Shown here: one piece after another, positions 30,070 through 33,720 of the stretch
How the letters are laid out: each line of letters opens with the position of its first letter
How positions within the stretch are numbered: position 1 is the first letter of the stretch
Assembly: GCF_018918095.1 (NCBI RefSeq)
Contig: NZ_JAHLPV010000015.1
Span: 1-54,255, forward strand
Length of the DNA stretch: 54,255 bases
Origin: Acetivibrio sp. MSJd-27
GTDB taxonomy: Bacteria; Bacillota; Clostridia; UMGS1840; HGM11507
Direction of reading: 5' to 3'
Program-made: the position numbers and the translations under genes
Notes under the pieces: generated by a model
The model's database searches: none
Told to the model about the DNA's origin: nothing
Seen by the model: only the letters and a program-made list of their open reading frames with translations

Positions 30070-31365
30070 TTGGTTAATATACTTAAATGGAATGAACTTT
30101 CCGACGAAAAGAAAAGCTTTGTGTTAAAACGAGCGGAAATTGATATCACCGAATATATGAAAACTGCGACGGAAGTCGCTTTCGATGTTAAAGAGAACGG
30201 TGATAACGCAGTTCTCAAGTACACAGAAAAATTTGACCGCATCAAACTGACAAAAGACCGGATGAAAGTAACACCAGAGGAAGTTGAGGCAGCGTATCAG
30301 CGATTGCCCAAAGAGACTTTGGATGCAATCACTTATGCCTACGGCAACATCAAAAAGTTTCACAGCGAGCAGATGCCGGAAAAGATGTGGTTTACCGATG
30401 TGGACGAAGGCATTATGGCGGGTGAAAAGGTTACGCCAATCGTGGACGTGTGTCTCTATGTCCCGCGGGGAAAAGGCAGTTTCCCGTCCGTATTGTTGAT
30501 GCTGGGTGTGCCGGCGGCAGTAGCGGGAGTAAAAAAGATTGTCGTGGTAACGCCCCCGAACGAAAAAGGGGAAGTGGACGATGCCATTCTGGTTGCCGCG
30601 AAATTGATTGGAATCACAGAAATCTATAAGGTCGGCGGAATTCAGGCAGTAGCGTCTGTCGCATTTGGAACGGAGACGATTCCAAAATGCCATAAGATCA
30701 TCGGACCTGGAAATGCCTATGCCACTGCGGCAAAGCGGGTGCTGGCCAGCTATATTGACGCGGGGCTTCCGGCCGGACCTTCCGAGTCTATCATCCTGTG
30801 CGATGAGCATACCGCTCCACACAAGGCGGCCTTGGACTGGATGATTGAGGCGGAGCATGGACCCGACAGCGCAGCGTTGCTTGTCACCCATTCCAAAGAA
30901 TTGGCGGAACAGGTTTTGCCGATTGTGGAAAAACAGCTTACCAAGCTTTCTGATAAGAGAAGAGAATTTATCAATACCAATTTTTCGACTTACGGAGGTA
31001 TCATCCTGACAGATTCATTGGAGGAATCCATTGATTTTGTCAATGAATATGCGCCGGAGCACATGGAAATCCTGACAGAGAAACCATTTGATATCCTGCC
31101 CAAAATCGAAAACGCAGGGGAAATTTTGCTTGGAGAATGGACCCCCATCACCCTTTGCAATTTCTTGATGGGTCCCAATGCCATCCTTCCGACCGGACAA
31201 TTTGCCAAAACCTATTCCAGCGTTTCGGTCAATGATTTCTTAAAGAGATCCTCAATTGGTTATGTAACGCATGAAGGATTCCGTAAGGTGAAGCATAACG
31301 CAGCGGTTATCGCGAAAACAGAGGGATTTGAAACCCATGCACTTGCCGTTTTGGATCGAGAATAA
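30070..31365 (+). CDS. hisD: Histidinol dehydrogenase-like protein with altered active site
   Basis: The 431-residue protein is a full-length HisD homologue (GPGNAYATAAKRVL at 212-225, catalytic pair E330-H331 in APEHMEI, E418 and H423 near the end). Three positions that are conserved in histidinol dehydrogenases differ. The zinc ligand Gln of SQAEH is E260, the zinc ligand Asp of GDYxxGxNH is N364, and the His of that motif is A371. HisD oxidises an alcohol to an acid in two NAD-linked steps; this protein may do so on another substrate. The start is TTG with an AAAGGA site. No other histidine gene except the HisB-like neighbour is in the window. The symbol reflects homology only. Confidence 0.8.
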   Translation: MVNILKWNELSDEKKSFVLKRAEIDITEYMKTATEVAFDVKENGDNAVLKYTEKFDRIKLTKDRMKVTPEEVEAAYQRLPKETLDAITYAYGNIKKFHSEQMPEKMWFTDVDEGIMAGEKVTPIVDVCLYVPRGKGSFPSVLLMLGVPAAVAGVKKIVVVTPPNEKGEVDDAILVAAKLIGITEIYKVGGIQAVASVAFGTETIPKCHKIIGPGNAYATAAKRVLASYIDAGLPAGPSESIILCDEHTAPHKAALDWMIEAEHGPDSAALLVTHSKELAEQVLPIVEKQLTKLSDKRREFINTNFSTYGGIILTDSLEESIDFVNEYAPEHMEILTEKPFDILPKIENAGEILLGEWTPITLCNFLMGPNAILPTGQFAKTYSSVSVNDFLKRSSIGYVTHEGFRKVKHNAAVIAKTEGFETHALAVLDRE

Positions 31366-31377
31366 GGAGCAATTGCT

Positions 31378-32010
31378 ATGAAAAAACAAATTTCGGTAAA
31401 ACGAAGAACAAAGGAATCCTTCATTGAAGTCGCACTGGATTTCAATGGATTGCATGAAGATTATAAGGAGGACATTAAGACACCAATTCCTTTTTTTAAC
31501 CATATGTTGGAGCATATTGCGTACCGTTCCGGAATGAACCTCTCCGTAATCTTTGAGATGGATCGATTTGATCTCACCCATATTGTTTTTGAGGATATTG
31601 GTATGGCATTGGGCAAGGCAGTCAAAACATACCTCGAGGAGAATAGAGATGAGGGAATTCCTGGTTTTTCAGACGCAATTGGGATCATTGATGAGGCGCA
31701 TGCATCCTGTGCGCTGAGCTTTGAAAACCGCGCATCTTTTTATTTGTCAGAACAGATTGAAGTTCCTGCCCAGACGGAAGGAACCTTGAGCGAAGATTTG
31801 GAAACCTTTTTTGAAGGCTTTGTACAGGGAGCAATGTGTTCTTTGCATTTGGATATCAATAAAGGAAAAAATGGTCACCACATCTGGGAGGCGGCTTACC
31901 GTGCGTTCGGCGTAGCCCTCCGCAGGGCACTGACACCGGAAGAAAGCAGGCGCGGTTTGACATCCGGCGTTTGCGGTCCCATTCATTATAAAATTGAAGC
32001 AGAAGAATAA
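31378..32010 (+). CDS. hisB: Imidazoleglycerol-phosphate dehydratase-like protein with altered metal sites
   Basis: This 210-residue protein aligns along the HisB dehydratase. The second metal motif HHIWEA (167-172) and the DEA motif (105-107) are intact. The first motif, normally HHTxED, reads HIVFED (68-73), so the second His is Ile. The conserved His of the RHG motif is replaced (R50 aligned), and FFDHML is FFNHML. The C-terminal Lys of STKG is also absent. Two of the usual manganese-ligating histidines are therefore missing, in parallel with the changes in the HisD-like neighbour 12 bases upstream. A different dehydration substrate is likely. The symbol reflects homology only. Confidence 0.75.
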   Translation: MKKQISVKRRTKESFIEVALDFNGLHEDYKEDIKTPIPFFNHMLEHIAYRSGMNLSVIFEMDRFDLTHIVFEDIGMALGKAVKTYLEENRDEGIPGFSDAIGIIDEAHASCALSFENRASFYLSEQIEVPAQTEGTLSEDLETFFEGFVQGAMCSLHLDINKGKNGHHIWEAAYRAFGVALRRALTPEESRRGLTSGVCGPIHYKIEAEE

Positions 32011-32019
32011 AACGGAGAG

Positions 32020-32046
32020 AAGCCTGTGTTTCGGCCAGGCTTTTCG
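32020..32046 (+). terminator. Short hairpin terminator after the HisB-like gene
   Basis: AAGCCTG (32020-32026) pairs with CAGGCTT (32036-32042) and is followed by only TT, so termination may be partial. Confidence 0.5.
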
Positions 32047-32111
32047 TGTGTAATACGTTGAATATGAAAGAAACGCCGCAGGAAAGCGGCAGATTGGAGT
32101 AACAGCAATCT

Positions 32112-33152
32112 ATGGACGAGCATTCGCGACGATGGGAGCAAAAAAAGTATCAAAAAATTCTTTTTGACATGGACGGCGTTATCACCTCAGAACGACAATA
32201 TTGGACAACGGCAGCACTCACTGTATTTGAACTTTATTATGAAGATGAGGAATTGAACATTGCTTGGTGTGAAGAAAATGCAGCTGCAGTATCTCACCGT
32301 ATTTTTAACAATGATGAGACCATCAAAGTCTTAAAAGCATTGGGTGTCAATACCAATTGGGATTTGGCATATCTGACGCTTCTTGCCGCCAGCGTGAAAA
32401 AGGCAGAGGGCGAACCGGATGAATCGATTTGGGAATCGGTAACTGAATTTTTCTATGACAATGGGATAAATGCACCGGAGTTGTATGATTTTGCAGCAGA
32501 ATCTGTCTGCGAACTCTATAATTTTGAGTTTGACACGGTGAAACGTATGGGCAAGCTATGGCACAATGTTCAGGATGTATTTCAGCAGTGGTATATGGGT
32601 GATGAATTCTATGAATGCGTTTACGGACGGCATCCACAGCGGGGAAAAAAGGGGCTTATCAGCGGGGAACAGCCGCTGTTCCCTGTTGCGGAGATAAAAC
32701 AGTTGTTGAAGAATTTGAGGAAAAAAGGGTATTGTCTTGGAATCGGAACGGGCAGAAGTACTCTGGAAATCAGAGAACCTTTGGAAATGTGGGGCATTCG
32801 GGAGCTGTTCGATGAAAAATCCGTTGTAACCTATGATACCGTGGAACGGGCTCAGAAAAACTGTGTCGGCCTTCAGTTGGCAAAGCCGCATCCCTATGTA
32901 TTTTTAAAAGGCGCTTTGGGTTGCGACTATCCCGATCAGAAGATTGTCAGCGGAGAGTATGAAGCATCGTTACGGAAAACGATATTGGTTGTTGGAGATG
33001 CAGGTGCGGATATCCTTGCGGCTAAGGCAGCTGGAATGGATTTTGCGGCAGTGCTGACCGGTGTCGCTGGAAAGGATTCCTATGACTATTTTAAAGAACT
33101 AGATGCGGATTATATACTGGACGACGTTCTGGAATTAGATAAAGTTTTGTAG
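32112..33152 (+). CDS. HAD-superfamily phosphatase
   Basis: Motif I is FDMDGVITS (catalytic D19 and D21), motif II is GIGTGRS, motif III is the Lys in LAKPHPYVF, and motif IV is VVGDAGADILAAKAAG. A long helical insertion between motifs I and II (about residues 30-190) forms a large cap; total 346 residues, longer than most HAD hydrolases. The substrate is probably a phosphorylated metabolite. The gene follows the HisB-like gene by about 100 bases with a weak terminator between, and leads tightly (16 bases) into the fumarase-like gene. The ribosome site GGAG is 13 bases before the ATG, so the start is slightly uncertain. Confidence 0.8.
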   Translation: MDEHSRRWEQKKYQKILFDMDGVITSERQYWTTAALTVFELYYEDEELNIAWCEENAAAVSHRIFNNDETIKVLKALGVNTNWDLAYLTLLAASVKKAEGEPDESIWESVTEFFYDNGINAPELYDFAAESVCELYNFEFDTVKRMGKLWHNVQDVFQQWYMGDEFYECVYGRHPQRGKKGLISGEQPLFPVAEIKQLLKNLRKKGYCLGIGTGRSTLEIREPLEMWGIRELFDEKSVVTYDTVERAQKNCVGLQLAKPHPYVFLKGALGCDYPDQKIVSGEYEASLRKTILVVGDAGADILAAKAAGMDFAAVLTGVAGKDSYDYFKELDADYILDDVLELDKVL

Positions 33153-33168: not shown

Positions 33169-33720
33169 ATGGCAATACGTGTTACAGTGCCTTTTGACAA
33201 AGAGCAGGCAGTGAAACTGAAAGCCGGTGACAATGTTTTGATTTCCGGTGTGATATACACGGCAAGAGATGCCGCTCATAAACGAATGACGGATGGATTG
33301 AAAGCTGGTACGCCGCTTCCGATGAACGTGAAAGATGCAATGATTTACTATGCCGGACCGACTCCCAGCAAACCGGGGCAGATTATTGGTTCCTGCGGGC
33401 CTACGACCGCAGGACGGGTAGACCGGTATACACCGGTAATGCTGGAATGCGGCCTGCGGGGAATGATAGGGAAAGGTGAGCGTTCCTCTGAGGTCGTGGA
33501 AAGCATGATCAAAAATAAATGTGTTTACTTTGCGGCAATCGGCGGTCTGGGAGCCTTGATATCAAAATGCGTCAAGCGTGTAGATATTATCGCCTTCGAG
33601 GATTTGGGCTGTGAAGCTGTCCGGCGTCTCGAGGTGAAAGATTTGCCGGCGGTTGTCGTGATTGATTCCAAAGGGAATAATCTTTATCGCCAAGCAATTG
33701 AAAAATATGCGGTAAAATGA
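33169..33720 (+). CDS. Class I fumarase/tartrate dehydratase beta subunit, without its alpha partner
   Basis: The 183-residue protein matches the C-terminal (beta) part of iron-sulfur fumarases and tartrate dehydratases. The motif SCGPTTAGRVDRYTP (75-89) and the IGKGERS segment are intact. The beta subunit normally works with an alpha subunit of about 280 residues that holds the 4Fe-4S cluster, usually encoded immediately upstream; here that place is taken by the HAD gene and no alpha gene exists in the window. The alpha subunit may lie elsewhere, or the protein may have another role. GGGAG precedes the ATG. Confidence 0.85.
   Translation: MAIRVTVPFDKEQAVKLKAGDNVLISGVIYTARDAAHKRMTDGLKAGTPLPMNVKDAMIYYAGPTPSKPGQIIGSCGPTTAGRVDRYTPVMLECGLRGMIGKGERSSEVVESMIKNKCVYFAAIGGLGALISKCVKRVDIIAFEDLGCEAVRRLEVKDLPAVVVIDSKGNNLYRQAIEKYAVK

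Follow-up and report, generated by a model that had tools for sequence, protein, structure and literature searches.

The 54,255-nucleotide contig NZ_JAHLPV010000015.1 of Acetivibrio sp. MSJd-27 (RefSeq assembly GCF_018918095.1), here called the window, contains a run of genes in one direction consisting of pyrE, a hisD-like gene, a hisB-like gene, a HAD phosphatase gene, a gene for a hydro-lyase subunit of the FumA C-terminus/TtdB type, and radC. The identities and coordinates which the original prediction, made from the letters of the window alone, gave for the HisD-like, HisB-like and HAD proteins were confirmed:

30070..31365, + strand: HisD2, a divergent histidinol dehydrogenase-family enzyme of 431 amino acids with a TTG start; the only PF00815 match in the genome.
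31378..32010, + strand: HisB2, a divergent imidazoleglycerol phosphate (IGP) dehydratase (IGPD)-family enzyme of 210 amino acids; the only PF00475 match in the genome.
32112..33152, + strand: a HAD-superfamily phosphatase of 346 amino acids, the third gene of a conserved triad; it adjoins hisB2 in 26 of 28 hisB2 loci.

From the comparison of genomes it is clear that HisD2 and HisB2 replace the canonical HisD and HisB, that HisC is absent from 11 of the genomes concerned, that the changes in the two active sites are fixed, and that the triad is conserved.

The MSJd-27 genome is 98.8% complete and carries hisZ-hisG-hisH-hisA-hisF-hisIE on another contig (L008), with HisG, HisA, HisF and HisI all present, and genome-wide searches with PF00815 and PF00475 gave HisD2 and HisB2 as the only matches, with no second HisD or HisB. 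The canonical enzymes occur in three further members of its family (G001-G003), in the order Z-G-D-C-B-H-A-F wherever this was readable, from which it follows that the MSJd-27 operon is without exactly the D-C-B block; approximately 335 bases separate its hisG and hisH. Each of the eight members of the order that were searched has one HisB, which is the variant form in five and the canonical form in three. The original prediction had tentatively assigned the HisD- and HisB-like proteins to a pathway separate from histidine, and had asked whether a canonical his operon is present as well: the operon is there, but minus hisD, hisC and hisB, with no canonical HisB or HisD elsewhere in the genome, and canonical copies are missing from all of the variant genomes, which speaks against a separate pathway.

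A scan of 84,980 species genomes for HisB2 with exact peptide patterns gave 26 loci, reaching from Clostridia to Sulfoacidibacillus, Hydrogenibacillus and Carbobacillus, with HisD2 beside HisB2 in all of them; as the patterns were exact, the variant family is probably larger. Together with MSJd-27 and four genomes of the same order, which also carry both paralogues, this makes 31 variant genomes, and in 31/31 all HisD and HisB copies are variant and none is canonical; two of the 31 hold two variant copies. HisA/HisF were found in 29/31, and HisG, which was searched directly only in MSJd-27, was seen elsewhere where operons were read. In Hydrogenibacillus the pair lies inside the his operon (hisZ-G-A-F-I-E-hisD2-hisB2, L035), while Sulfoacidibacillus and several distant lineages have a Z-G-H-A-F-IE operon minus D, C and B (L219, L221, L222, L229, L230), which together tie the pair to histidine. 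Since MSJd-27 has its own his operon minus D, C and B, and the variant genomes have no canonical copy, the triad most likely completes histidine itself. A biosynthetic or salvage pathway unrelated to histidine and using HisB- and HisD-like chemistry, as originally read, would suit the rebuilt active sites described below, the catabolic-looking operons of the proteobacterial HisD2 homologues, and the two genomes which have the pair without a true HisA/HisF match, but we consider it improbable: the variant genomes would then stop at IGP, as 31/31 are without another HisB or HisD, and both the position of the pair inside the Hydrogenibacillus his operon and the loss of exactly D, C and B from the his operon count against it.

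Two of these lineages have further peculiarities. Hydrogenibacillus schlegelii (L223, G023:C17; L035) has a hisH-hisF pair apart from its his operon, which itself contains a second, more divergent HisF-like gene without hisH; we take this species to be autotrophic, which would prove prototrophy, but did not find this in the literature searched. For Monoglobus pectinilyticus, the 518-kilobase record NZ_OY725736.1 (L193) is labelled a plasmid, but as pta, acetate kinase, sigH and the triad lie on it, it looks like a chromosome; the Monoglobus HisB2 is annotated as a hypothetical protein.

HisD2 is a full-length member of its family, with 493.5 bits for Pfam Histidinol_dh (PF00815) and 460.7 bits for TIGR00069 (cut-off 243.8). 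It shares with canonical HisD 32-42% identity to the enzymes sampled, the catalytic Glu-His pair, the zinc histidines and E414. When 34 variant HisD sequences were compared with 13 canonical HisD and five HpsN-like proteins, all aligned to solved HisD, the following positions set the variants apart:

30472..30483, + strand: K-G-S-F (HisD2 codons 135-138), replacing the substrate-pocket motif G-S-A-P-L of HisD or G-R-Y-A/S-H of HpsN; fixed in 34/34 variants and 4/4 proteobacterial homologues.
30847..30849, + strand: E260, equivalent to zinc ligand Gln259 of E. coli HisD; E in 34/34 variants, Q in 13/13 canonical and 5/5 HpsN-like.
31159..31161, + strand: N364, equivalent to zinc ligand Asp360 of E. 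coli HisD; N in 34/34 variants, D in 18/18 canonical plus HpsN-like.
31180..31182, + strand: A371, equivalent to His367 of E. coli HisD; A in 34/34 variants, H in 18/18 canonical plus HpsN-like.

The meaning of the HisD/HpsN motif as a substrate pocket is taken from PMC11382572. All 34 variants have Glu, His, Asn and His as zinc-ligand set, versus Gln, His, Asp and His in canonical HisD, and all keep the catalytic Glu326-His327 (E. coli numbering); the alignment thereby bears out the changes to E260, N364 and A371 with a retained catalytic pair, as they were first read. In the HisD tree, HisD2 and the proteobacterial homologues form one clade of their own (100/100 support), within which the position of the proteobacterial group is unsure, with long branches present.

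A precedent for other substrates within this family is HpsN, which oxidises the alcohol of a vicinal diol to the acid in two steps, and so shows that the group next to the alcohol can be a hydroxyl rather than an amine (PMC11382572). At the three positions altered in HisD2, however, HpsN-like proteins have the Q, D and H of canonical HisD, and their pocket motif is different; we rejected an HpsN identity for HisD2 on the motif (G-K-G-S-F with E/N/A versus G-R-Y-A/S-H with Q/D/H) and on the tree. The Klebsiella oxytoca, Rhizobium leguminosarum and Sinorhizobium meliloti plasmid homologues (L194-L196) do have E, N, A and G-K-G-S-F and belong to the HisD2 clade, but differ from the triad in that they lie in operons with an ABC transporter, an alcohol dehydrogenase, a short-chain dehydrogenase/reductase and a flavin mononucleotide (FMN)-dependent alpha-hydroxyacid dehydrogenase, without HisB2 alongside. 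That the HisD2 active site is common to these FMN alpha-hydroxyacid dehydrogenase operons fits the conversion of a diol-type alcohol to an alpha-hydroxy acid. The three proteins are annotated only as histidinol dehydrogenase, and we found no paper title addressing the substrates of the rhizobial cluster.

HisB2 matches Pfam IGPD (PF00475) with 115.8 bits (E 2.3e-33), but falls below every NCBIfam HisB equivalog cut-off (best 128.2 bits versus 189). Its predicted model (pLDDT 94.3) matches Arabidopsis IGPD2 over the whole chain (Z 26.5, 194 residues at a root mean square deviation of 1.9 Å), so that the IGPD fold is intact. We compared 34 variant with 11 canonical HisB sequences in the numbering of IGPD2, in which H47, H74, H169 and E173 are the ligands of Mn1, and H73, E77, H145 and H170 those of Mn2 (PMC4509728); the phosphate contacts used were Q51, H55, R99, K177, R121, S199 and K201. 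The differences are:

31525..31527, + strand: R50, equivalent to phosphate-site His55; R in 34/34 variants.
31582..31584, + strand: I69, equivalent to Mn1 ligand His74; V/L/I in 34/34 variants, H in 11/11 canonical.
31663..31665, + strand: G96, equivalent to phosphate-binding Arg99; G in 34/34 variants, R in 11/11 canonical.
31804..31806, + strand: T143, equivalent to Mn2 ligand His145; T/A/V in 34/34 variants, E/H in 11/11 canonical.
31966..31974, + strand: G197-V198-C199, equivalent to S199-x-K201 of the phosphate-binding C loop; G and A/C in 34/34 variants, S and K in 11/11 canonical.

With both H74 and H145 replaced (the latter position being Glu in most canonical bacterial HisB sampled), one ligand is lost from each Mn site, whereas the remaining six are kept in 34/34 variants, as are the catalytic acids E21, D108 and E173. 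At the phosphate site K177 has become R in 34/34 variants, and R121 is kept. The first metal motif, HHTxED, reads HIVFED in HisB2 and the second, HHxxE, is intact; this part of the original prediction, including the lost His, agrees with the alignment, in which the His of A-S-H-G corresponds to Arg50, and to it we add that the second lone Mn ligand (Arabidopsis H145) has gone as well. The lost His of A-S-H-G was also considered as an Mn ligand and rejected, as the alignment numbering puts ligand H47 at the kept H of N-H-M-L. The HisB tree places the variant forms in a single clade with 100/100 support, on a very long branch relative to canonical HisB; as in the HisD tree, long branches occur.

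Judged by these alignments, the substitutions in HisD2 and HisB2 are neither chance nor decay: they are fixed in 34 and 34 variants, and we found none of them in the 13 HisD, five HpsN-like and 11 HisB proteins examined. The fixed replacements next to kept catalytic residues indicate changed specificity rather than decay, and their clade-wide occurrence supports the earlier proposal that both enzymes are altered where substrate and metal are held. Degenerate paralogues, on their way to loss in histidine auxotrophs, might also sit on a long branch such as that to canonical HisB and lose otherwise invariant residues, but are a very improbable explanation for replacements that are fixed, and catalytic residues that are kept, across distant lineages, in open frames (no stop was reported inside any HisD2/HisB2 family match) and with the rest of the pathway intact.

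The third gene is tied to the other two by position: hisD2-hisB2-HAD forms a conserved triad in diverse Bacillota, the HAD gene being beside the pair in 26/28 loci counted, and hisB2 and the HAD gene overlap or are at most 60 bases apart in most relatives. This conserved and often overlapping adjacency supports the original assignment of the HAD protein to the HisB/HisD pair. The catalytic residues D19, D21, K258, D296 and D300 are invariant, and the predicted model (pLDDT 93) has 1qyi as nearest solved structure (TM 0.77, 28% identity), a structural genomics entry whose title names no function and from which no substrate was transferred. The weak terminator formerly placed before this gene stands in part, as its stem and T run are visible by eye but were not among the sites listed by the terminator scan:

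32021..32044, + strand: stem of weak terminator type carrying a short run of T, in the gap from hisB2 to the HAD gene.

Directly after the HAD gene (window 33169-33720) lies a gene for an iron-sulfur hydro-lyase resembling the beta subunit of class-I fumarase/tartrate dehydratase, and such a gene is found 3' of HAD in seven clostridial loci (the window, L023, L024, L026, L027, L041, L193). Upstream of hisD2, the PyrE-type enzyme which had been thought to make a ribosylated precursor scores as a true orotate phosphoribosyltransferase (TIGR01367, 241.7 bits), and its adjacency was observed nowhere except in the window and in a single genome from its order (L233); we therefore rejected it as a pathway partner.

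HisC was called with TIGR01141 at its curated cut-off of 276.55 bits, which is reached in all three canonical relatives. The best score in MSJd-27 is 147.8 bits, below the cut-off, and HisC above the cut-off is absent from 11/31 variant genomes, of which MSJd-27 and four others are at least 92% complete. The best scores per variant genome are bimodal (134-157 bits versus 275 and more), although 4/14 control genomes also miss the cut-off, which is thus not infallible. Where HisC genes have informative neighbours, these are DAHP synthase/chorismate mutase (three loci), tyrA (two, one with trpA) and purE/miaB (three); the neighbours at the remaining loci were uninformative. A HisJ-family phosphatase over cut-off is absent from at least one third of the variant genomes, which is consistent with HAD being the phosphatase. 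An operon-embedded aminotransferase in G033 (L217), considered as the last enzyme, proved to be an LL-diaminopimelate aminotransferase beside asd and aspartate kinase, and so belongs to lysine synthesis; in the same operon these genes are followed by a 218-amino-acid frame (L217 4966-5622), directly upstream of hisA, with no Pfam or NCBIfam match.

Taken together, the triad very probably takes over the closing part of histidine synthesis from HisB, HisC and HisD, whatever the order of its steps. With regard to that order, early dephosphorylation and late transamination are suggested by the loss of phosphate-binding residues from HisB2, the presence of a dedicated phosphatase in the operon, the loss of HisC, and the alpha-hydroxyacid dehydrogenases found beside relatives of HisD2. 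HisD-family enzymes take a terminal alcohol through the aldehyde to the acid, the substrate of the IGPD reaction must carry an imidazole, an acidic C2 proton and, at C3, a hydroxyl that can leave, and the amination of imidazolepyruvate to histidine is feasible for many aminotransferases. In the proposed route, the ordinary upstream enzymes (HisZ, G, IE, A, H and F) would deliver IGP, from which HAD would remove the phosphate early to give imidazoleglycerol. Oxidation of the terminal CH2OH to a carboxylate by HisD2 and dehydration by HisB2 would follow, in either order, so that imidazoleglycerol would pass through either imidazoleglycerate or imidazole acetol to imidazolepyruvate; a carboxylate in place of CH2-phosphate would meet the needs of the IGPD reaction. 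Lastly, a general aromatic or aspartate-type aminotransferase would convert imidazolepyruvate to histidine, and as transamination would come at the end, HisC would not be needed. The net chemistry would be that of the textbook route with its steps permuted, in line with the original view that the set supplies late-histidine chemistry; that view thus stands for the rebuilt sites, the HAD partner and the chemistry, and falls for the separate pathway and the PyrE-made precursor. Replacement of HisB, HisC and HisD by the triad, with transamination moved to the end, is in our judgement the best explanation as a whole (probability roughly 0.55). For transamination being last across many Bacillota, with histidinol phosphate and histidinol never made and HisC dispensable, we see the balance as even, and oxidation before dehydration is a tentative detail which we think rather unlikely.

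Several observations weigh against the reordered route. HisB2 still has R121, is basic at position K177, and could bind phosphate through the new R50; MSJd-27 retains a HisJ-family phosphatase; and Hydrogenibacillus and Carbobacillus are without HAD beside the pair. HisC or a near-cut-off HisC fragment is present in 20/31 variant genomes, and as stand-in aminotransferases are hard to recognise by sequence, the missing HisC is suggestive only. Most variant genomes are metagenome bins, and no T-box that would support control by histidine was found beside the pair in the 26 loci or in L008. Finally, G010 and G026 (loci L022 and L038), of which G026 carries two copies of the pair, are without a true HisA/HisF match and are possibly incomplete bins, or possibly reflect a second function of the pair. 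The strongest competing explanation, which we hold to be possible but distinctly less probable, is that divergent enzymes follow the canonical order, HisB2 acting as IGP dehydratase, another aminotransferase standing in for HisC, HAD or HisJ as histidinol phosphatase, and HisD2 as histidinol dehydrogenase. It accounts well for the complete swap of canonical HisB and HisD, for the co-occurrence with upstream his genes, for the retention of E326-H327 in HisD and of E21, D108 and E173 in HisB, and for HisC being present in about two thirds of variant genomes; the change of Q plus D to E plus N in the HisD zinc site leaves the net charge as it was, and some other bacteria are known to have histidinol phosphatases of the HAD type. 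However, metal and phosphate residues which are invariant in the canonical enzymes have been swapped for fixed others in every variant, which exceeds drift, both enzymes have changed together with hisC lost alongside in 11 genomes, and the HisD2 active site recurs in proteobacterial operons without HisB.

Histidine synthesis is taught as a single unbranched route in bacteria, archaea, fungi and plants, and in the literature searched, which covered few subscription papers, we found neither HisB/HisD variants of this kind nor a histidine route ending in transamination. IGPD is a herbicide target, and a homologue with a rebuilt phosphate site may inform inhibitor selectivity. Genome surveys take HisB and HisD to be indispensable; in one of gut bacteria, histidine prototrophy is scored on HisB and HisD, with HisC and HisN optional, and the new alternative enzymes reported lie in other pathways, none in histidine (PMC9026213), while gaps at HisN and HisC have been noted as unsolved (PMC7311316). 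Some of these gaps would be accounted for by a replacement module whose active sites are new; it would also put right the prediction of prototrophy in Bacillota from the gut and the environment, and would represent a natural experiment in the reordering of the same reactions. Acetivibrio sp. MSJd-27 and many other Bacillota seem to have given up the textbook HisD, HisC and HisB for the variant pair and a phosphatase, which hints at another order of the last steps in a pathway supposed to be universal.

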